64,000 bases of DNA from Microbispora hainanensis (lineage in GTDB: Bacteria; Actinomycetota; Actinomycetes; Streptosporangiales; Streptosporangiaceae). Made by a program: the position numbers and the translations under genes. This document shows positions 1 to 10,957 of the stretch, piece by piece (position 1 is the first letter of the stretch; every line of letters begins with the position of its first letter). The stretch lies in assembly GCF_006874475.1 (NCBI RefSeq), contig NZ_VIRM01000038.1, positions 1 through 64,000 on the forward strand. The letters run 5' to 3'. The notes beneath the pieces are model-generated. The model was not told the DNA's origin and made no database searches. It saw only the letters and a program-made list of their open reading frames with translations.

Positions 1-96
1 AAGGTGCGCGAGGGCGGGCGGACGGTGAACGTGCACTGCCTGATCGCCACCGGCGTCAACGCGGGCGGCGTCAGGATCGACGACGCTGCACGGTGA
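1..96 (+). pseudogene. IS256-family (Mutator-type) transposase fragment
   Basis: The window opens inside an open frame that ends with TGA at 94-96. Its translation contains GGRTVNVHCLIATGVNAGG, which resembles the segment of IS256-type transposases leading into the catalytic core (usually ...LIATGVNADGRREVLG...). The frame breaks off right after this motif and ends in RIDDAAR, so the rest of the transposase, including most of the DDE residues, is absent. I read it as the broken end of an insertion sequence marking the left edge of the accessory island. The 5' part lies outside the window. Confidence 0.6.
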
Positions 97-101
97 CACG
101 A

Positions 102-740
102 TTACGGAGACGCTCGCGTCGGGGGGGGCGTGTCCAACCCGCTGTCACCGGCCGCCGTCGCGAGCTGAGTGTTGGTCTTCTGGATGGAGGCCGTACTGAG
201 CAGTACCTCGGCCTGGGCGTCCTTGAGGCTCTTGTACGACTCCCGGACGTAGGCGACGAACTCCTCGCCCGGGTGATTCACGAGGATTTTTCCTTCCTCC
301 CCTGCCGCCCACTCGGCGGCCGTCACCTCGTACGAAGCAATGTGGGCGCAGAAGTCTAGGACTACGTGTGGTATTTGGTCCTCGATGAACAGGTCGCCGT
401 GGTCCACGATGGCATCCCGCATCTGGCGCGCCGACGGCAGGAACACTGTGAGTACCCAGCGGCGCCACAGCCTGTGCTGCTCCTCGGTCAACTCCACGCC
501 TCGCCGGCGTTCCTCGGCCGATGGCAGATGCTGCCGACGGAAGGCATCCCAGGTACGCTCGTTCGACTCCACGAGCACCAGGAGCGGCCCGTATAGGTCT
601 CGCAGTTGGGAGTCGACACGGTTCAGGCGGGCCTGGCGCCGGGCGCGTGCGAGCTCTCCGCGCTGGTTGAGCAAGTATGCGAGGACGGCGATGAGGACGC
701 TGGCGATGGCGGTGACCAGCGTGGCGATCAGGGTGGACAG
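102..740 (-). CDS. Small membrane-anchored protein downstream of the TIR gene
   Basis: No family recognised. If translation starts at CTG (738-740), which has AAAGGAG five bases upstream, the protein has 212 residues and begins with a hydrophobic helix (STLIATLVTAIASVLIAVLAY, about residues 2-22) followed by the basic run NQRGELARARRQARLNR. This is a single N-terminal anchor with a cytoplasmic helical domain. The best ATG/GTG/TTG alternative is TTG at 674, which would remove the anchor and lacks a clear ribosome site, so I prefer CTG. The body is rich in Trp, Glu and Arg (WDAFRRQHLP, HRLWRRWVL, YVRESYKSLKDAQAEVLL). It lies 21 bp after the TIR gene on the same strand and is probably co-transcribed, suggesting a membrane partner or effector for the TIR protein. 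The function is inferred only from context. Confidence 0.7.
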   Translation of the reverse strand: MSTLIATLVTAIASVLIAVLAYLLNQRGELARARRQARLNRVDSQLRDLYGPLLVLVESNERTWDAFRRQHLPSAEERRRGVELTEEQHRLWRRWVLTVFLPSARQMRDAIVDHGDLFIEDQIPHVVLDFCAHIASYEVTAAEWAAGEEGKILVNHPGEEFVAYVRESYKSLKDAQAEVLLSTASIQKTNTQLATAAGDSGLDTPPPTRASP

Positions 741-761
741 GGGGGCTCCTTTGCTCGGGGA

Positions 762-1658
762 CTAGAGAGGTTCGAAGACCAAGATCTCGATGTCATCGGT
801 GACCTCGATCGCCGAACCGACGCTGGCTGCGAGCGTTTGCAGTCGTCCGTAGTTCTTGGCGGCCCGCCGATATCCCTCGCTGTCGCAGCGCACGGTGATT
901 CCACTTTCCGTGGTCCGCAGCTGGCGAACATGGGACTTACCGATGATTTCGTGGACGTTCAGAACCACCTCCTTACAGAGGGCGTCCCTCACGCCTTTCG
1001 CCGGGATGTCCGGGTCCGGCTGGACATGGGTGGTGACCGACGAGGTCCTTCCCAGTATCTCCAGCCTCCTTTCCAGCGCCTTAATCCTTATATTCTGCTC
1101 GCGGACGAGGCTAACGAGTTCGTTGAGGATGGCGGGCGTAGCTCGGGTTAATGCCTTCGGGGATGGCTTCATTTGCCTGATCTTCTGAAGCGTCTTGTCC
1201 AGTTCCTCCCAGTACTGGTCGAAATGTCCCCGCAGGATGTCGGTTTCGACCTTGCCCTTGCTGTCGCACACGTCGTTGATCGACTGGACCATTTGCCACA
1301 CTTGCCCCTTGTTCGAAGAGTCAGTGGCCTGAAAGCTGGACAGCGGCCCGGGCGTCAGGTCCTTTTCTGGTAGATCGATGAGAAACGGCATGACCCGGCT
1401 GTCGGACACCGCTTTTGACAGCGCCCCTGCCTCAAAGTTGAGCCAGGGGGCCGCCTGATTCCCTCGCGTGACACACACTATGCCGAAGTTGGATACCTGC
1501 AATTGGTTCGCGATCTTGGACCTCGCCAGCTCGCCCTTCGCGATGTCGGTATTCGAGCACCACGGGTCGATGGTGTGATTCAGCTTCCTGATCCACAGTT
1601 TTAGAAACGAGGCGCACTGCTCGGCCAGTTCTCCGGACCAACTGATAAAGAGCTTCAC
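762..1658 (-). CDS. TIR-domain protein with C-terminal coiled coil
   Basis: The first about 140 residues read as a bacterial TIR domain: MKLFISWSG at the start (strand A), PWCSNTDIAKG, then GIVCVTRGNQAAPWLNFEAGALSKA. Glu76 in the WLNFEAG motif is in the place of the catalytic Glu of TIR NADases, so NAD+ cleavage or cyclic ADP-ribose signalling is possible but unproven. Residues about 180-215 look like a coiled coil (LNELVSLVREQNIRIKALERRLE). The last 80 residues form a small domain I do not recognise. The GTG start at 1658 has AAGGAA upstream. It is first in a two-gene minus-strand operon with the membrane protein and is divergent, across 156 bp, from the giant STAND-like gene. Bacterial TIR proteins commonly act in anti-phage defence, which fits this IS-bounded setting. 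Confidence 0.85.
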   Translation of the reverse strand: MKLFISWSGELAEQCASFLKLWIRKLNHTIDPWCSNTDIAKGELARSKIANQLQVSNFGIVCVTRGNQAAPWLNFEAGALSKAVSDSRVMPFLIDLPEKDLTPGPLSSFQATDSSNKGQVWQMVQSINDVCDSKGKVETDILRGHFDQYWEELDKTLQKIRQMKPSPKALTRATPAILNELVSLVREQNIRIKALERRLEILGRTSSVTTHVQPDPDIPAKGVRDALCKEVVLNVHEIIGKSHVRQLRTTESGITVRCDSEGYRRAAKNYGRLQTLAASVGSAIEVTDDIEILVFEPL

Positions 1659-1814
1659 TCTGGCGCGTTCCTTGAGGTGAGGGCATCCGGCGGCCCGACC
1701 CTGCAGCCGGACTGACCTATTGTCAACTCAGGTGCCGTGCAAGTCCACTGGCGTCGGATAAACTGATGCCTCTTCCTCTCTGTCCTTGATACGCGAGGCA
1801 TAACGGGAGGTCAC

Positions 1815-4800
1815 GTGTCCGTGACGGCTTCCAGTGGGATTTCGACGGCAGCTAGGGATCTTGAACTGTTCCTGTCTGGCCGGGGGCGCACCGCGGAGGG
1901 GAGTTACTCTCCGGCGGTGCTCAAGGGCGTGGGGCCGTTCGCGGTGTTCCTGCACCGCAGAGTCGCCATGACGGCCTCCGTGCTGGTGCCGGCGACGGAC
2001 CGAGTGGTCAGCCCCGGCCCGCACGTCGTGCTGCTGCCCCGGCTGTGTCAACGCGCGGCGGCCGTGGGCGAGCACGCGCTCGCTGAACTGCTGGACTGGG
2101 CGGAGATCGCCTGGACCGGGCGCACCAGCCAGCGCTACTTCTACGCTCGTCGTGCGCTGCCCGAGCCCGTGTACCGGCATCTGCACGACCTGGTGACCCG
2201 GCATGGCGCCGTGATGCGCCGGGTCACCGGATCGCTGGTGCTGCGCGCGCGGGCCGAACACCTGAGGGCTGAGACGGACCGCCTTGCGAGCGTCGACCAC
2301 ACGTTCACCCGGCAGTTGTTCGTCAAGCCTGTGGAAGCGGTCCTGCACGATCTCAGCCGAGGTGTGATCGACGATCACGGGCTGCTGGAGCATCCCCCGG
2401 AGATGCTCGTCTCCCGCGTCAACGTCGCCCACCGCGGCCAGGGTAATCTTGCGCCGGTCCCCAGCAACGGCAAACGCTGGCCGGTGCTGGTGAAAAATGC
2501 CGCGGAGGTCTGCGAACTGGTGCGCTACCTGCTGGAGATCGCGGCCGAGCATACCTGGCACGTTCCCGACGTCTCCGCGCCGCCGCTGGATCGGCTCGAC
2601 CCGGTCCTGGTGCCCGTCGTCGAGGCGCTTCTGTTCGCCTCCCCGGACCTGGATGCGCCCCGGATCGACGCCGACGACAGCTGGGTGACGAGGGTCGCTG
2701 CCGAGGCGCTGACGCTGGTGGCCGGGGAGCACCGGCATCTGATCGCCCTGGCGGCCAGGGGAGCTGGCGTGCCGGAGGAGGTGACCGGGCCGGCACTGGA
2801 GCCGCTGGAGAGAATCCGCGAGCGTGCGGACATGCTTTTCCGGGGGTTGGCGCAAGATCCGGACGGGGAGGGCGAGGACCTGCACAGTCTGATCCTCGAC
2901 GCCCTGGTACGCGGTGATTTGCCCGACGCTCAGCAGGGCCTGGACATGCTAGAGGAGCTGGACGGACGCACGGCCGTGGAGGTCAGGGCGATGGCCGTGC
3001 AGCAGGCCCTAGCCACTCTCGGGGACGGGGACGGGGACGGGGTACGGCTCCACCTCAGGACTGTCGAACTGCACTTGGAACGCGGCGATCTGCGCGCGGC
3101 CGAGTCCTACGTCGCTCAGGCTGAGCAGGCCCTGCCTGGCGACCCGGAACCGGCGTGTCAGCAGCGGCCGCAGGACGCGGAGCCGACGGCAGCCCTCGCG
3201 GAACCAAAGCAACCCCCGGCCACTGCCCAGGTTGACACCGCAGACATCGCTAGTCCCGTCAATACCCCGGACACCGTCCACGACGACGAGTTGCCCGCCC
3301 GCATCCTCGCCGCCTTCCGGACTCCGACGCATCAGACAGCCGATCGGGGGCAACTAGAGTGGGACGTAGGGCAGCTGGGCCGGTCGGGGCCGCTGTCCGA
3401 CGTGGTGAGCACCGCTCGCGAGCTGCTGCACCTCGCACCCGAGCTGGTCGTCGAACTCACCGACTTGGCGCTGCACCGGGCCCGCCCCGTCCTGTACCCC
3501 TCCCTGTGGCAGCTGCAGTACGACGCGCTGCGTAGCCTCGGCCAGACCGAGCGGGCCGAGAGCGTGTTCCGGCGGGGCCATCCGCCGCTGCCGCCCCAGA
3601 GCCTGACGGTCGGCGAGTCAGTACCGGGCGCACACCTGCTCACCCCGTACGTACGGCCGTTCCGCGGCGCCGACGTCACTGCGGAGGCGGGCGGCGGCCC
3701 AGGAGCCGGGCCGCGCACGCAGGAGGAGGAGGCGCGGCTGTACGCACGGTCGCTGGAGGCGGGCAACACAGCCGCGCTCGGCTATGCCATCGGCTGGGCG
3801 GTCCGTGCAGGCCGGGCCGCGGACGCCCTCCACCTGTACCGGCGGTTTGGGCCGCACCAGTATCTCAACGGGGCGGCCGCCTGGAACATCGCCGCCGCCT
3901 ACGCCGCCGTCGGCTCCGCCCGGCAGGCGCTTCAGGCGCTGGACGTCTTCCAAGACATCCTTTCCGGCCGCATGGAACCAAACCAGCGACGTGCAATGAG
4001 GGAGTTTATGGCCCTTCACGGCGCCCGTCCCGCACCCGAACCGGCTTTCCAGGGTGCACCCGGTACGGGCACTGGGCCCATGCACCCCGAGGAGGAAGCC
4101 AAACACCTGCACGCCATGGGCCGTGCGCAGGAGGCGGCGGCCCGATTGGAACAGCTGCTGACGGTGAATCCGCGATCCCCCGGCGCCTTCCTGCTGCTAC
4201 GCATCCACCGCGAGGGCAACAACCTGGCCGGGGCGCGTTCGGTGGTCGACCGCATTGAGGCGGCTGGGGTGGCGACCTGGCGGCACCACCTCGAACTCGC
4301 CCGCAACGCACTCGAGGCCGGGGACGTCGCCCTCGCGCAGGAACGCCTCGACCGCGCCCAGCAGATGGGCGCCACCGCCGACTGGACGGAGAAACTCCTC
4401 CACCAGCTGCGCGCCCAGCCGGCCGGCCGGGTCGAGATCCGGCTAACGCCTGTGCCGGCCACTGGCGTGGCGCCGCCGCCCACCAGCACCAATGACATCG
4501 AGGCCTGGCGGAAGTATTTCGCCGCCCAGTTGGGCACGCGCGGACTCCAGGACGTGCTGGAGACCACTACCTGGGCCTCGCTGCGCGAACCCGTCATCGT
4601 TGGCGTGCTCACCACTCAGCTGCGCACCCTGGGAATCCCCGTGCCTCGCGCCGACATCACCGAACGACTGATCGGCCTGGTCAATCAGTGCCGTGACTCC
4701 TTCCTCAGCCGCGACCTCGCCCTGTGGCTGATCAACGGCTGCGATCACCGTACGGCGGTACGGGTGCTGCAGGACTGCGTCGCCTGGACACCGCCCGAAC

Positions 4801-7800
4801 GGCTGCCGCGCGTGGTCTTCCTGCGAGACGAGGCCGTCCGCAGGGGCGGGCTGCCCCAGGGGAGCTACGATCCACCCTCGCCGCCGGCGCAGGTCACCAG
4901 TGTCCGGCGGGCTGTGGATCCGTCGCTCGTGCCCGAGGTCCACGTCCAGGAGATCGGCGGGCCGCAGGCTGCGGACCTCCTCATTCACGAGGCGCAGCAG
5001 CTGCCGCCGAACACTGAAGCCTCTCTCGTCGCCGACGCCTGGCTCAGAGCCGTACACCACGGGCACTCCCTGGCCCTCGGCAACGCGCTGGCGACGCTGG
5101 TGCTGGCCGACCGGGCCGAGGAGGCGGTCGCCTTCTACCACAGCGTGTCCGACCGGTACTGGCTCGGCTCGTCCGCGGCGTGGAACCTGGGCTGCGCCTA
5201 CATGGCGTCCGGCCACTTGGAGGAGGCCGCCACCACCTTCGAGTACCACGCGCGCGTGTCCACCTGGAGCTACACGGACGAGCAACGCAGGGTGCTCACC
5301 GCGCTCTTCGAGTCGGTGGGCCGCCCGGTGCCAACCCCTGCGGGCAGCAAGCTGCTGCTGGCCCGGGGCGGCAACGCCCGGCCAGGCACCGGCGAGCAGG
5401 CCGTCGCCGCGCTTGGCGACGGGGCCGACAGCGCCGAGGGGGAGGCGGCCCGGCGTATCGCGCAGTGCAGCAGCGCACCGACCAGCCACAACTTCTACTA
5501 CGCCGGTACGGCGGTGCGTCGGGCCATGCAGTCTCGGCCGTCCGGCAATGTCGCCCGGTACCTGGCAACGATGCGGAATCTCTTCGCGCTGGTGACCGAC
5601 CTCAACCCGAAAGCCGTCGCCGAGATGGCGGCCGTACTTGAAACGGCCGGCCGGGCGGAGGAGGCCTGGAACCTGCTCCGGCAGTGGATCGACCGAACTC
5701 GTGCGGCACCCGCGCTGCTGGCCCTGGCGGTTCGCATCTCCCGAGAGCTGGGCCACGAGGGGGAGCTGCGCAGGCTGCTGGAGCGGCACCAAAGGCCGAA
5801 CTCCTCCTATGAGGTGTACCTCAGCCTTGCCAAACTGGCGCAGCGACAGAACGACGAGGAGGCGCTGCTCAAGTACGCCGACCTTGCACTCCAGCGCAAC
5901 CGCCGATCCGTGGAGGCGGCCGTCCTCAGGGAGAGCGCCGCAGCTCTCCGACAGGCCCTGCCGGTGGGCGACCGGGGCGTCCTGGCCAAGGTTAAAAACC
6001 CCCGAGTGTCGGTGAACCAGGCGATCCAGCAGCTGGTGCACGAGTACGACGACCAGGTGCGCGACCTGCGGCTGAAGGCATTGACTTGGTTCCAGCCGAA
6101 GGTCGATAAGGCGGAGCTGAACCGTTTGCTGTCGACGACGCTGCGCGCGCAGGCCAAGCCCGCGTTCCAGGCCGCCACGGACGAGGACTGGGAGACGGCG
6201 ACCCGGCTGTTCAAGGAGCTGCTGAAGAAGCATCCCAGGGACGTGGCCTTGGCCCGGGCGACGGTGGCCTGCCAGCTCAAGTGCGGCATGGTTGACGACG
6301 CCGCCGCGGTCGCCGGAGTCTTGGGGCACATTCCGGACGGGGTACGCCTGCAGGTGCAGGTTGCCTGCGCCCAGGGTGATTACAACGAAGCCGGCCGTCT
6401 CCTTGGGCTCTTTCTCACGCTGCACGACGGTTCCGCGGAGGAGGCGATCGTTCAAGCAGGTCTGCTCACCCACCTCGCCAACCGCGCCTCGGTGGCACCG
6501 AAGCTCCTCCTGGAGTTCGCCCGGCGCCGCCAGCCGGGCACCTCCGACTTGCCGCTGGCCATCGCGGTGGTCCTGGCCAACCAGCAGCGCAAACGCGACC
6601 TTGCGCGTGAAGCACTCCAAGAGCTGCGCCGCCCCCGGAACGAGGAGCCGGATGCCCTCATCGCCCGGGCGATTGAGTACGACGTCCCCGACATCCTCAA
6701 TGACACGGCCATACCGCCCCTGGGCCGGGGGCACCTGGAGCGCATTGTGGAGCACCTGCGCATGGACACGCCGCGGCTGCTGCGATTCCTTCAGGACCAC
6801 ATCAAGCTTAGGGCGACCGCCCTGGATAGCACGGTGGTGCGAGAGGCACGCGGGTACTGCGCGACGCTGCTCGCCGAGCACGGGCTGGTGCGCGACGCCT
6901 ACAGCGTGTGGCGGGGGCTCGTCGAGAGCGCGGCCACTGCGGAGGAGAAGGGCAATATTTTACACGAGCTTAGATCCTTCTGCGACCGGATCTCGTACGC
7001 AGAGGGCTACCGCTACGCCATCGTCACCCTGCCCGAACTCGGCATCGAGCCGAGCGACGAGGACCTGGCCTACGTCGACAACATGTCCTCTGAGATGGAA
7101 CCGCAGGCTCTACCGGAGGAGACCACGCAGCTCGTCCAAGCGGTGGTAGTCCGCCGGTGCGCTTCCCTCGCGGAGGCCCTGACCTCGGCCGTGGATCAAC
7201 TGAAGGTTGATGCGGGACCGCAGGACGCGATCGGCCTGGAGAAGCTGAGGAAGCTGTGGACGCGGCTGGCCGAGCAGTTCGAGGACCCCGACTCGCCGTC
7301 CCGGCTGGCAGGCAGAACGACGCGTGACCTCGTCGAGTCGGCGACACGCGTCGAGAGCGACATGTACCTGCAGCGCCAGCTCGCGAAGAACCTCATCTCC
7401 ACGGCACGCGGCGAAGCAGCTGTCTCGCTCTCCCGTGCGCTGCAGGAAGCGTGGGACGAGGTGGCGCGGCATCACCTCAAGAGCGGCGGAACCCAGCGCT
7501 GGCTGGATCTGACGGTGCACAGGGCGACCCGCCTGGGCAGCGGCCCCGTGGAGGTCAAGGTTGAGATCACTAGCTTCCGCCAGCCCTTGAAGCAGGTCAC
7601 GGTGCGCGTCGACAAGAGGACGCTCGTGGTGGGCGACCTGGAGCCCCACTCCTCCGCGACACGACGCCTCGTCCTGCCCGGCGAGGCCCAGGAGGTGAAG
7701 GTCACCGCCTCGGGCCTGCAGGACGGCAAGCCGACCGAGAAGACACAGACGGCACCGGTCACCCGCTACCCGCACGATCAACGGCTGGCCGCACGCTTCA

Positions 7801-10064
7801 ACCCGAGCGACCCGGTGGACCCGGAGCTGTTCGTCGGCCGCACTAAGGAACTGGAGGACCTGACTCACCACTACGAGAAGGCGGCCCGGACCAACACACG
7901 GGCACTGTTCATGACGGGCTCGCGTCAGGCGGGCAAGACGTCGATCGCGCATCAGCTCAGCGAAGTCCGTCCGCCCGGCGCCGCCGAACTGCCGCCGCCC
8001 AGCAAGTGGCGCATCCCGCGCGTATTCCCCGTCTATCTGAACGCCGAGATGACCGCCGACGCCGACGGCCACTTGATGACCGACATCGCCAAGGCGGTCG
8101 CCCTCGCTGTAAACCAGGCCTTCAGCGGCCAGGCACCAGACGTGGGCATGCCCGAGGGTGCCGGCTCGCTGGACTTCCTGCGCTGGTGGCGGGACGTTCG
8201 GCAGCGGCTGTGGCAGGACAACGTGGGCCTGCTGCTGATCCTCGACGAGTTCCAGCATCTGCTGCGCCAGCTGAAACAGTCTGGAACCTTAGAGTCCGCG
8301 CTGAGCGACCTGCGCGGCCTGAAGAATCGTGGCGATCTGGCTCTGCTATTCTGTGGGGCCGCGACCACCAACGGGATCCGAGAGTTGCTGGAAGGCACTC
8401 GTTTCCAGCAGGAGTTCACGACGCCGTACCTCATCGGGCCGCTGGACATGGAAGCAACACTGCAGGCTTTTCACCAGGGCTTCCTACCGCCCGTCGACGT
8501 GATGCCCCAGGCCGCCGCACGGGTCTGGGCCCATACCAAGGGCCACCCTCAGCACATCCACATGCTCGGCAGCAGGGTGCTGGAACTGCTGCATGACGGG
8601 CAGCGGGTAATTGTGGACACGGACCTCGTGGACAAGGCGTTCGACCGGGTGGTGGCCGACGACGATGCGGTGATCAGCCTGCTCGACCCCTACGTCGAGG
8701 GACGCCGCGAACAGGCGCTGGAGCTTCTGTACGAGATCGCCGAACTCATCGACGAGGGCGCATCTGACGCCGCGGTGAAGGCGCAGCTCGGCACGGCCAA
8801 GTTCAAGGACCTCGAGGCGCTGCGCGCGTTCGGGATCCTCGTCAAGGCGCAGGACGAATGGCAGTGGATCAACCAGATCGTGCGCACCTGGCTGGACACG
8901 CGGCGGCCGCGGAACCCCGACCGCACGCAGTCCGCCTGGCAGCCAGACGAGGAAGCCCTTAGGAGTGCTGGATACGTCGTCGTCAGCCGCGTCGACGACG
9001 GAGTCTGGCCGAAGACCTGCCTGCTGCGGCACGACAACCATAAGCAGCCGCTGCTGGCCCGACACCACCCCGGGCACCGGGCGACGCTAGCCCGACTCAA
9101 CGAGATCCTTTTCGACCCCACGCAGAACGTAGCTGGTGTGCCCGAGATGCTGTCCCCCTGCGGGGACTGGCTGCTGTTCCGCGCGGTGGAAGGGGTTAGT
9201 CTGCGGCAGAAGCTCGACGCCAAGCTGGCCGGAAGCGCAGAGATTAGCCCTGTCAATGCCGCTCGCTGGATCGCCGATGCGTGCGACACACTGCACCGGA
9301 TGCTCGATGCGCGGCAGATCACGCACGGAAACCTACGGCCGGAGAACCTCGTGCTGGTCGGGGAGGACCCAGGCGAGCTGCATGTGCTGGGTTGGGGCTC
9401 CGGCACCGACCTGGCGCTTGGCCAGCCGCTCCTTCCAGCCCGGCACCCATCGGACTATGCGCCGCCCGAAGCCCGCGACGGCACATCACCGGCAGCATCG
9501 CCTCAGGACGACGTGTTCGCGCTGTCAGCGATCCTCTACCAACTGCTGCACCCGTCCGGCGCCCTGCCCTACGCCGACCAGGAGTCGTTCCGATTCGGCC
9601 CACCGGCTCTTCCAGGGTATGGGCTGTTGAACAGTACCGTCTGGCAGGCCGTGAGCAAACGCCCCGACGCCCGGTTCCCCAGCGCTCTGGAGTTGCGCAA
9701 CGCCCTAGAGGAGGCCGTGCTCGAACTGCAGCACAAAGATCGAAGGGCGACGAGGGTGCCCGTAGGCGCTCCTTCGGTAACCCCTCCGGTTACGCTCTCC
9801 GGCACGGCGCAGACCGAACTCCGGCGCAAGCTGGACCATCTGACGGAAGTGATCGAGTTTCTCACCGCCAGTCTCACCGGGGATGAGGAGAACGACGTAA
9901 TCCGCGACCACTCCCACCTCATCGAGGCCGTTCGGGCCGAGGCCCTGGAGCCCCACCGCATCGCGAAATTCGCACGGCGGTTGCGGGAGACGCTTGCAAG
10001 TTTGGGAACTCCATCGCCAGCCATCCGCATGGTGGACGAGATACTCGAGGTCGCCCTCTCATAA
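1815..10064 (+). CDS. Giant TPR-STAND NTPase-pseudokinase protein (2749 aa)
   Basis: GTG start with GGGAGG four bases upstream. Residues 1-300 are an unrecognised domain. About 300-1900 are helical TPR-like repeats (clear units near 690 and 1123, AAWNLGCAYMASGHLEEA), with a Pro/Ala-rich linker near 450-500. About 1910-1995 look like a beta-sandwich (VEVKVEITSF...LEPHSSATRRLVLPG). Then comes an NTPase: ELFVGRTKEL near 2005, Walker A GSRQAGKTS near 2035-2043, Walker B LLILDEFQ near 2139-2147, GAATTNGI sensor-like strand, and a winged-helix-like region. About 2390-2660 is a protein-kinase fold that has lost key residues: HGN at 2504 replaces HRD, GWG near 2526 replaces DFG, and no VAIK lysine is visible; YAPPEARDG and DDVFALSAILYQLL remain. 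A helical tail follows. The likely role is a stimulus-sensing STAND ATPase in a conflict system; the cellular target is unknown. Confidence 0.85.
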   Translation: MSVTASSGISTAARDLELFLSGRGRTAEGSYSPAVLKGVGPFAVFLHRRVAMTASVLVPATDRVVSPGPHVVLLPRLCQRAAAVGEHALAELLDWAEIAWTGRTSQRYFYARRALPEPVYRHLHDLVTRHGAVMRRVTGSLVLRARAEHLRAETDRLASVDHTFTRQLFVKPVEAVLHDLSRGVIDDHGLLEHPPEMLVSRVNVAHRGQGNLAPVPSNGKRWPVLVKNAAEVCELVRYLLEIAAEHTWHVPDVSAPPLDRLDPVLVPVVEALLFASPDLDAPRIDADDSWVTRVAAEALTLVAGEHRHLIALAARGAGVPEEVTGPALEPLERIRERADMLFRGLAQDPDGEGEDLHSLILDALVRGDLPDAQQGLDMLEELDGRTAVEVRAMAVQQALATLGDGDGDGVRLHLRTVELHLERGDLRAAESYVAQAEQALPGDPEPACQQRPQDAEPTAALAEPKQPPATAQVDTADIASPVNTPDTVHDDELPARILAAFRTPTHQTADRGQLEWDVGQLGRSGPLSDVVSTARELLHLAPELVVELTDLALHRARPVLYPSLWQLQYDALRSLGQTERAESVFRRGHPPLPPQSLTVGESVPGAHLLTPYVRPFRGADVTAEAGGGPGAGPRTQEEEARLYARSLEAGNTAALGYAIGWAVRAGRAADALHLYRRFGPHQYLNGAAAWNIAAAYAAVGSARQALQALDVFQDILSGRMEPNQRRAMREFMALHGARPAPEPAFQGAPGTGTGPMHPEEEAKHLHAMGRAQEAAARLEQLLTVNPRSPGAFLLLRIHREGNNLAGARSVVDRIEAAGVATWRHHLELARNALEAGDVALAQERLDRAQQMGATADWTEKLLHQLRAQPAGRVEIRLTPVPATGVAPPPTSTNDIEAWRKYFAAQLGTRGLQDVLETTTWASLREPVIVGVLTTQLRTLGIPVPRADITERLIGLVNQCRDSFLSRDLALWLINGCDHRTAVRVLQDCVAWTPPERLPRVVFLRDEAVRRGGLPQGSYDPPSPPAQVTSVRRAVDPSLVPEVHVQEIGGPQAADLLIHEAQQLPPNTEASLVADAWLRAVHHGHSLALGNALATLVLADRAEEAVAFYHSVSDRYWLGSSAAWNLGCAYMASGHLEEAATTFEYHARVSTWSYTDEQRRVLTALFESVGRPVPTPAGSKLLLARGGNARPGTGEQAVAALGDGADSAEGEAARRIAQCSSAPTSHNFYYAGTAVRRAMQSRPSGNVARYLATMRNLFALVTDLNPKAVAEMAAVLETAGRAEEAWNLLRQWIDRTRAAPALLALAVRISRELGHEGELRRLLERHQRPNSSYEVYLSLAKLAQRQNDEEALLKYADLALQRNRRSVEAAVLRESAAALRQALPVGDRGVLAKVKNPRVSVNQAIQQLVHEYDDQVRDLRLKALTWFQPKVDKAELNRLLSTTLRAQAKPAFQAATDEDWETATRLFKELLKKHPRDVALARATVACQLKCGMVDDAAAVAGVLGHIPDGVRLQVQVACAQGDYNEAGRLLGLFLTLHDGSAEEAIVQAGLLTHLANRASVAPKLLLEFARRRQPGTSDLPLAIAVVLANQQRKRDLAREALQELRRPRNEEPDALIARAIEYDVPDILNDTAIPPLGRGHLERIVEHLRMDTPRLLRFLQDHIKLRATALDSTVVREARGYCATLLAEHGLVRDAYSVWRGLVESAATAEEKGNILHELRSFCDRISYAEGYRYAIVTLPELGIEPSDEDLAYVDNMSSEMEPQALPEETTQLVQAVVVRRCASLAEALTSAVDQLKVDAGPQDAIGLEKLRKLWTRLAEQFEDPDSPSRLAGRTTRDLVESATRVESDMYLQRQLAKNLISTARGEAAVSLSRALQEAWDEVARHHLKSGGTQRWLDLTVHRATRLGSGPVEVKVEITSFRQPLKQVTVRVDKRTLVVGDLEPHSSATRRLVLPGEAQEVKVTASGLQDGKPTEKTQTAPVTRYPHDQRLAARFNPSDPVDPELFVGRTKELEDLTHHYEKAARTNTRALFMTGSRQAGKTSIAHQLSEVRPPGAAELPPPSKWRIPRVFPVYLNAEMTADADGHLMTDIAKAVALAVNQAFSGQAPDVGMPEGAGSLDFLRWWRDVRQRLWQDNVGLLLILDEFQHLLRQLKQSGTLESALSDLRGLKNRGDLALLFCGAATTNGIRELLEGTRFQQEFTTPYLIGPLDMEATLQAFHQGFLPPVDVMPQAAARVWAHTKGHPQHIHMLGSRVLELLHDGQRVIVDTDLVDKAFDRVVADDDAVISLLDPYVEGRREQALELLYEIAELIDEGASDAAVKAQLGTAKFKDLEALRAFGILVKAQDEWQWINQIVRTWLDTRRPRNPDRTQSAWQPDEEALRSAGYVVVSRVDDGVWPKTCLLRHDNHKQPLLARHHPGHRATLARLNEILFDPTQNVAGVPEMLSPCGDWLLFRAVEGVSLRQKLDAKLAGSAEISPVNAARWIADACDTLHRMLDARQITHGNLRPENLVLVGEDPGELHVLGWGSGTDLALGQPLLPARHPSDYAPPEARDGTSPAASPQDDVFALSAILYQLLHPSGALPYADQESFRFGPPALPGYGLLNSTVWQAVSKRPDARFPSALELRNALEEAVLELQHKDRRATRVPVGAPSVTPPVTLSGTAQTELRRKLDHLTEVIEFLTASLTGDEENDVIRDHSHLIEAVRAEALEPHRIAKFARRLRETLASLGTPSPAIRMVDEILEVALS

Positions 10065-10090
10065 TGGCCGAGGCTCTGGTTGGACTGCAC

Positions 10091-10420
10091 TGAACCGCCC
10101 CGGCCTTGATGTTCACCGGCTTTCGTGGAGTCCCTTTGGTTGACTGGCAGGCCCGAAACCCAAGAGAGGTCAGCATGCCGAGGAACTATCCCCCCGAATT
10201 TCCGCCGCAAAGTCCTGGACCTGCTGAAGGCCGATCGCACCATGCGGCGGGTGGCCGCCGATCGGCAGATTAGCGACCAGACCATCTACAACTGGCGCAG
10301 ACAAGAGCGCATCGATGTGGGTCTGGAGCCCGGTATCACGTCGAACGACCAGGCCGAGCTGGTGGCCGCCAGGCGGCGGTTGCGAGAGACGCTCGCAGCT
10401 GATCACGTGAGGTCGGAGAG
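10091..10420 (+). pseudogene. Decayed IS3-type element: left end and frameshifted orfA
   Basis: TGAACCGCCCCGG at 10091 resembles the terminal repeat of actinobacterial IS3 elements. An ATG at 10175 opens MPRNYPPEF, the usual start of the helix-turn-helix OrfA. One extra T near 10199-10201 shifts the frame, and the remainder (RRKVLDLLKADRTMRRVAADRQISDQTIYNWRRQE, then GITSNDQAELVAARRR) continues in another frame. The homology ends near 10410, before the leucine-zipper part, and no OrfB integrase follows. The element is therefore inactive. It lies 27 bp after the giant gene and marks the right edge of the island. Confidence 0.75.
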
Positions 10421-10702
10421 TTCCAGTGCTGGCCCCAGGCGACGAACGCCGCTCCGTGCTTGCTCCTGCAGCACGCGAGCGGCTTCGGCGTCGGCGCAGG
10501 CCAGGTCGACGTGGGCCGGCCGGGCCTGGACCCTCATGGAGCCGCCGTGGTATCTCGTCGGCGTTTACATTTGGCGGGCCGTGACTGGGTCTGTCCAATC
10601 AACGGGTCTGTCCCGGGCGTAGGTAATCCGCCGCCGCCCCCGCGCGGTTGTTGCCGCATTCGCCGCTGCCGTGTCGCACGCGACGCGTGATGGATACGGT
10701 CA
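10421..10702 (+). other. Gene-free stretch between two IS remnants
   Basis: No convincing gene. Open frames here have no ribosome site and no recognisable motif. The stretch joins the truncated IS3 orfA to the truncated IS630 transposase and is best read as scrambled leftovers of nested insertions. Confidence 0.5.
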
Positions 10703-10957
10703 GCGCGGTTCCACATGCACTTCACCCCGACCGGCTCCTCCTGGATCAACCAGGTGGAGCGGTGGTTCGGGTTCCTGACCGATCAGCTCATCCGGCGCGG
10801 GGTGCACAAGAGCGTCCAGTCCCTGGAGAAGGACATCCGCGACTGGATCGCTCAGTGGAACAACAACCCTCGGCCGTTCGTATGGAAGAAGACGGCAGAG
10901 GAGATCCTCGAATCCCTCGCACGATATTGCCGACGAATTTCAGGCGCAGGACACTAG
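10703..10957 (+). pseudogene. IS630-family transposase, C-terminal fragment
   Basis: The frame starts abruptly with ARFHMHFTPTGSSWINQVERWFGFL and ends ILESLARYCRRISGAGH. This is the last about 85 residues of IS630-type transposases that usually read HFTPTHASWLNQVERWF; the Glu in NQVERW is the third residue of the DDE triad. The two catalytic Asp residues and the N-terminal helix-turn-helix are missing, so the fragment cannot transpose. It may still appear intact from its ATG at 10715, but no ribosome site precedes that codon. Confidence 0.8.

Follow-up and report, generated by a model that had tools for sequence, protein, structure and literature searches.

A rare candidate TIR immune module with a giant NTPase-pseudokinase as putative regulator in Microbispora hainanensis

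Introduction

Do three genes that lie among the remains of insertion sequences (IS) belong to a single system and, if so, to what kind? The question is raised by one end of a contig from the actinomycete Microbispora hainanensis (assembly GCF_006874475.1; 8.7 Mb in 251 contigs). The window, by which we mean the whole 64,000-nucleotide stretch that was analyzed, covers positions 1-64000 of contig NZ_VIRM01000038.1 (C184). Three genes occupy positions 102-10064: those for a TIR protein and a small membrane protein on the minus strand, the latter beginning 21 bp beyond the end of the TIR gene, and a divergent gene for a giant protein on the plus strand. An initial annotation of the window had described these genes as lying between IS remnants and as forming one conflict system, in which the giant senses and the other two proteins execute. 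All three are indeed intact open frames. Our comparisons largely support the view that they form a module, and that module is rare. As for its function, we give about even chances to an immune module of the TIR/NAD+ (nicotinamide adenine dinucleotide) kind, with the giant as its regulator.

102-740, minus strand: membrane protein of ~212 residues; N-terminal transmembrane (TM) helix, then ~150 residues predicted to be cytosolic, Arg-rich just past the helix
762-1658, minus strand: TIR protein of 298 residues; TIR part ~1-165, linker, C-terminal alpha/beta domain ~225-298; Glu76 codon at 1431-1433
1712-1755, no strand: conserved intergenic block that separates the divergent genes for the TIR protein and the giant, a candidate shared promoter/operator; matches the S. 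coelicoflavus locus (L010, below) at 32 of 44 bases
1815-10064, plus strand: giant protein of 2749 residues; full-length relatives ~59% identical

Conservation of the three genes

The case for a module comes from the few genomes in which a close relative of the giant occurs. A scan of the genome_contigs collection with six peptide patterns, which detects close relatives only, returned one, in Streptomyces coelicoflavus NBRC 15399 (L010), 59% identical over the whole length. Searches by taxon returned the window's own giant and no other in the genus (15 genomes), in the family (341 genomes, with up to six candidates per genome scored) and in a sample drawn from the phylum (396 genomes; E values up to 1e-20, with up to two candidates per genome scored). 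In another genus, presumably Streptomyces, 4 of 392 genomes have a giant. One of these four giants is close (G1060, region L020), with 90% identity to that of S. coelicoflavus and 59% to that of the window. Wherever a close giant was found (3/3 genomes: the window, L010, and G1060/L020), the TIR and membrane genes are its neighbors, with order and orientation unchanged. The co-occurrence expected by the initial annotation therefore holds for close giants; the opposite outcome, giants mostly without the TIR pair, is what we observed for the three distant giants (26-27% identical), which have another partner.

Could these instead be three unrelated cargo genes gathered by transposons? IS remnants lie on either side of the locus, and each gene has relatives that stand apart from the other two, as chance assembly would have it. 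Yet S. coelicoflavus and G1060 carry the same genes in the same arrangement while the neighbors beyond the membrane gene differ among the window, L010, and G1060, and an arrangement kept at 59% protein identity nearly refutes such an origin. The intergenic block is also conserved: its score in the comparison of the window with L010 was reached by 0 of 500 shuffles, although in L010 the edge of the block falls within a possible longer TIR frame. Because both the arrangement and the block are conserved, a chance neighborhood is very unlikely.

On the giant's side, a response-regulator gene is present in both L010 and G1060 (by eye); since these two are also near kin, they may share one insertion. 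Beyond the membrane gene in L010 (5683-8051) lie two tandem TniQ-domain genes (Pfam 1.2e-21 and 2.8e-17), which suggest a transposon-linked insertion.

Parts of the module appear to evolve at unequal rates. In the one pair compared by the NG86 counting method (S. coelicoflavus versus G1060), the ratio of nonsynonymous to synonymous substitution rates (dN/dS) was lowest in the nucleoside triphosphatase (NTPase) of the giant (0.15), followed by the TIR domain (0.28), the C-terminal helical domain of the giant (0.36), and the membrane protein (0.41). Higher values were found for the pseudokinase (0.53), the giant N-terminus (0.55), and the TIR linker plus C-terminus (1.08). These values suggest that the NTPase and the TIR domain are under constraint, and that the pseudokinase and the C-terminal part of the TIR protein change fast, by relaxation or conflict.

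The giant protein

The giant is built from several recognizable parts, all encoded on the plus strand:

1815-2747, plus strand: N-terminal domain (residues 1-311), fold unassigned; window and L010 share 70% identity
4107-5777, plus strand: stretch with TPR matches, residues ~765-1321, inside a longer alpha-repeat region; Pfam TPR_19, TPR_7, and TPR_8 and NCBIfam PilW, all under their cut-offs
7800-8939, plus strand: AAA+/STAND-like NTPase, residues ~1996-2375; Walker A GSRQAGKTS (Lys2041) and Walker B LLLILDEF, then a possible winged helix
8982-9764, plus strand: predicted pseudokinase, residues ~2390-2650; Arg2416 at the Lys position, Asn2506 at the HRD Asp, Gly2526 at the DFG Asp
9792-10061, plus strand: C-terminal helical domain with four predicted helices; in the three TIR-linked giants, absent from the three distant ones

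The initial annotation had called the giant STAND-like. Profile matches of the NTPase fall below the Pfam cut-offs (ATPase_2, E 0.0012; AAA_16, 31.9 of 32.6 bits), whereas the Walker A Lys and the Walker B Asp and Glu are invariant in 6/6 giants. A structure model of residues 1985-2749, built from a six-row alignment, reached a mean predicted local distance difference test score (pLDDT) of 56.7, better in the NTPase core and the C-terminal helices; the possible winged helix was seen in this weak model. With it, Foldseek ranked ORC/Cdc6 and RuvB best and Avs3 further down (E 1.5e-4). The fold is probably AAA+ of the ORC/STAND sort, so that the earlier label can be kept as "AAA+, STAND-like" at most.

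A kinase fold follows. Searched together as one profile, the six giants match bacterial Ser/Thr kinases (best 1.8e-14; the window protein alone, 0.024). Active kinases are marked by the VAIK Lys, the HRD Asp, and the DFG Asp. In the window these positions read Arg, HGN, and GWG, in agreement with the pseudokinase of the initial annotation; in L010 and L020, Glu and Gln occupy the Lys position and Gly replaces the DFG Asp (GWG for DWG), while HGD is kept. Judged by these residues, which do not match those of active kinases, the domain is a pseudokinase. As for the C-terminal helices, the CATRA-type family PF20270 gave a match below cut-off in L010 (E 0.021) and none in the window, the two proteins scanned. 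We also considered a shared adaptor, that is, recurrence of this C-terminal domain in the TIR or membrane protein, and rejected it: in comparisons of profiles, which were shallow, the probability stayed below 1%.

Three distant giants (G878, G979, and G902) show what the chassis looks like elsewhere. They are 2743-2759 residues long, 26-27% identical to the module giants, and have the same order of parts, but they keep the kinase Lys (AVAK), HGD, and DWG and are without the C-terminal helical domain. In the 20-kb region retrieved for each, we found no TIR or membrane gene; a chance-level match to the membrane protein (E 0.010) falls within a giant. Instead, in 3/3 cases the downstream gene overlaps the stop of the giant by four bases and encodes kinase-like and NERD nuclease parts. 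The domain scan of this partner was made on the L022 copy (Pfam NERD 1.2e-6, Pkinase below cut-off, weak PADLOC kinase matches at both ends); the corresponding proteins of L021 and L023 share 82% and 76% identity with it. Because the distant giants have this other partner, the giant appears to be a constant regulator whose partners can be exchanged, and the residue pattern reads as a kinase that died in one branch, the TIR-linked one.

The giant and its kinase-like/NERD/kinase-like partner make up a two-gene unit in its own right (L021 1644-12739, L022 1720-12830, L023 7324-18332), with similar chromosomal surroundings by eye. Neither protein of this unit matched the plasmids searched, and our literature search returned no description of it.

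The TIR protein

Is the TIR protein of the module an enzyme, and of what kin? It matches Pfam TIR_2 below the cut-off (E 6.1e-5; 23.9 bits against 28) and the PADLOC model "TIR-TM" over residues 1-199 (1.9e-51), a label for which the literature search yielded no explanatory paper. Glu76, singled out by the initial annotation, is invariant in 10/10 aligned rows (the window's included) and aligns with the W-x-x-x-E glutamate of AbTir; it is likely the catalytic glutamate of TIR NADases. A structure model from a three-row alignment was poor except in the C-terminal domain (mean pLDDT 53.6). For both the TIR protein and the giant, the models are weak because the alignments are shallow (3 and 6 rows).

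The nearest full-length relative that we found (L070, genome G1026; 41.5% identity) adjoins a TM-macro ThsA, the effector of Thoeris (PADLOC 3e-85; PF20016 2.5e-59). The window protein matches no PADLOC ThsB model at E 0.1, and that of S. coelicoflavus gives 0.022. Its kinship suggests that it is no new type of TIR but a relative of Thoeris ThsB. Two observations bear on whether a TIR gene was swapped within the module: the window protein is closer to the G1026 TIR than to the module TIRs (~39%; 38.8% for S. coelicoflavus), and a tree groups the three module TIRs with weak support (72/78).

The family is portable, with members in phages P2_AC1 and mEp390, in an Escherichia coli prophage, and in Gloeothece, where the TIR gene lies on a plasmid (L025 4001-7842) immediately upstream of the cas10 of a type III-B CRISPR system (PADLOC CRISPR-T 1.3e-55). 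The family occurs in 3 of 200 genomes of the window's taxonomic family, its own included, and in 11 of 305 presumed Streptomyces (E up to 1e-10). Eight of these 11 regions were retrieved and the genes of seven examined; in the two scanned for ThsA, L070 and L072, a TM-macro ThsA adjoins the TIR gene.

Four of the regions (L072, L074, L075, and L076) have a second TIR-like gene and a ParA-like gene beside the TIR gene. Pfam supports both assignments in L072 and that of the ParA-like gene in L074; those in L075 and L076 were made by eye. The ParA-like gene comes with TIR and TPR or DUF7779 parts (L072 3433-10234, L074 5774-11113, L075 4386-10453, L076 9376-15467); in L072, the Thoeris TM-macro ThsA is present besides.

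The membrane protein

The third gene has an uncertain start, as the listed TTG gives a frame that is too short. The sequence AAAGGAG precedes a CTG at 738-740, which is probably the start and gives the gene 102-740. All three module copies have a single hydrophobic N-terminal helix, in line with the initial annotation. The window protein had no Pfam or PADLOC match above chance, neither a macro nor a nucleotide-binding domain, and none among solved structures (best E 0.91).

Relatives, in part incomplete or broken matches, were found in 41 of 315 genomes at E values up to 1e-5, and also on three Streptomyces plasmids. When the flanks of the 30 best loci were searched with two small profiles built here, a TIR gene was near in two, on the same strand in G882 and divergent in G1032; 12 wider and three plasmid regions added no genome. 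The top match (G934) sits at a contig end. In G1032 (L079 10034-12014), the membrane-family copy lies divergently beside the gene of another kind of TIR_2 protein (up to 437 residues). The initial annotation had treated the TIR and membrane proteins as a fixed pair, which does not hold beyond the module: members of the TIR family turn up in phages and a prophage, next to Cas10, and next to ThsA, and the membrane family is TIR-adjacent in 2/30 loci.

What might the protein do? It could be an effector, an anchor, or an inhibitor, roles that sequence data do not distinguish. One alternative is that the giant directly activates the TIR protein as an NAD+-emptying NADase, that the role of the membrane protein is limited to anchoring or restraining the complex, and that there is no diffusible signal. 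The lack of a nucleotide-binding domain match (Pfam, PADLOC) fits this scheme, as do the E. coli prophage, where a same-family TIR gene lies among annotated phage genes with no ThsA named, and phage P2_AC1, where the neighbors are annotated as hypothetical. However, the nearest full-length TIR relative adjoins ThsA, a signal-gated effector in type II Thoeris according to PMC12847820, and neither of the other two proteins is as well conserved as the membrane protein (69-70.6% identical between the window and S. coelicoflavus, against ~59% for the giant and ~40% for the TIR protein), beyond the need of an accessory anchor. We regard direct activation as possible, at well below even chances.

Flanking remnants and composition

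The locus is bordered by three transposase remnants:

1-96, plus strand: truncated IS256/mutator-type transposase fragment; Pfam Transposase_mut E 0.0051, below cut-off; one side cut by the contig start
10125-10622, plus strand: IS3-type OrfA remnant; Pfam HTH_Tnp_1 7.1e-5, just below cut-off
10715-10957, plus strand: transposase C-terminal remnant, probably IS630-type; Pfam DDE_3 7.2e-4 and rve_2 0.002, both below cut-off

The bounding by IS256, IS3, and IS630 elements that the initial annotation described stands insofar as remnants lie on both sides. Their naming is likely but weakly supported, because every Pfam match is below cut-off, and "IS-bounded" is only partly observable on the left, because the window begins at contig base 1 and the left IS is cut by the assembly. 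A DNA search of the whole genome found the left fragment in single copy. The TIR gene has a G+C content of 58%, against 71% for the rest of the window, which fits recent transfer.

Elsewhere in this genome (G000), further TIR_2 matches lie on other contigs (C205:167-2664, C197:128592-128951, C197:184278-184496). The open frames that contain them have 436, 1317, 2037, and 168 codons, and the one of 168 codons is interrupted by a stop.

Proposed function

The explanation that we favor, at even chances, is the immune module with the giant as regulator. The TPR/N-terminal part of the giant would recognize an infection cue, and its NTPase would change assembly state, thereby releasing or nucleating the TIR protein. 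The TIR protein would cleave NAD+ through Glu76, leading to depletion or to an ADP-ribose (ADPR)-type signal as with Thoeris ThsB. The small membrane protein would be the membrane-side partner, in place of the TM-macro ThsA.

Several observations weigh against this explanation. No direct phage link of the module was found: the giant had no match among plasmid and phage records, and alignments of the giant and the membrane protein, searched against viral contigs with two peptide patterns each, yielded 27 and 58 stretches and no relative. The co-occurrence amounts to about two independent points, because two of the three genomes are near kin with giants 90% identical. The fast change of the pseudokinase and TIR C-terminus could reflect relaxation and not an arms race. 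In addition, the membrane family is mostly without a TIR neighbor, and no giant was found in 20 retrieved regions, 13 of them carrying the membrane gene, which makes for a poor fit to a dedicated effector.

The surroundings of the relatives point the same way and bring up a nonimmune regulatory module, in which the giant would be a scaffold for signal transduction or development and the TIR gene an accessory. The distant giants, with their kinase-like/NERD gene, stand in ordinary chromosomal surroundings (by eye, no defense-gene scan), and membrane-family copies are found among ordinary genes. Against this stand the patchy occurrence (1/341 in the family), the low-G+C TIR gene, and the IS remnants, together with a likely catalytic TIR whose family is found in phages and beside Cas10 and ThsA. 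We consider a nonimmune role unlikely.

Since the TIR protein is kin to a known system, we class the proposed immune module as TIR immunity of a known kind, in a variant set apart by its unusual giant regulator. A bolder proposal, which we hold only tentatively and think less probable than its negation, is a new TIR immunity type: a ThsB-like TIR would be gated by a giant TPR-AAA+ pseudokinase and act via a single-helix membrane protein belonging to a new family of effectors. The chassis would have swapped partners (kinase-like/NERD versus TIR/membrane), the kinase would have become a dead scaffold, and a C-terminal adaptor helix domain would have been gained. If true, this would mean that a TIR enzyme can be controlled by a very large NTPase-pseudokinase whose partners are exchangeable, that in nature a kinase domain has lost its catalytic activity along with a change of partner, and that TIR signaling has a candidate new membrane effector.

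Comparison with known systems

We compared the module with parts of six papers (PMC13174449, PMC7159879, PMC8195603, PMC10853773, PMC11204291, and PMC12847820). Its composition is not named in the available part of the PMC7159879 survey of conflict systems, nor described in the literature searched, which comprised titles and abstract openings, with most subscription journals outside coverage.

Like the STAND/AAA+ immune sensors (Avs and the conflict systems in the available part of PMC7159879), the giant combines an AAA+ NTPase with TPR repeats, although the Avs3 fold match comes from a weak model in which ORC/Cdc6 and RuvB score better. Unlike those sensors, its recognizable repeats precede the NTPase, with the pseudokinase and helical domain after it, and we found no effector in the same chain. 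The giants paired with a kinase-like/NERD gene (G878, G979, and G902) are similar in length and part order; there, the partner differs, the kinase Lys, HGD, and DWG are kept, and the C-terminal helical domain is missing. The TIR genes of P2_AC1, mEp390, and the E. coli prophage belong to the same family (33-38% identity), and the Glu motif is found in the two of these sequences that were examined, those of the prophage and P2_AC1. These two proteins have other C-terminal parts, and the phage collection holds no giant.

The closest likeness is to type II Thoeris, in which TIR makes His-ADPR that drives the TM-macro ThsA to perturb the membrane (PMC12847820 and PMC11204291). As there, a membrane protein is encoded beside the TIR gene, and the nearest full-length relative of the window TIR adjoins a TM-macro ThsA. 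In contrast to type II Thoeris, the membrane protein is without a macro domain, a giant NTPase-pseudokinase is added, and the PADLOC label is "TIR-TM", not ThsB. A TM-macro ThsA is not in the locus, and none was found elsewhere in the genome by a search that was also silent in every control genome. The module would then be a TIR system akin to Thoeris that has a giant regulator and lacks a macro effector, its defense role, signal, and effector being putative, and it may represent a rare, undescribed phage-defense device related to Thoeris.

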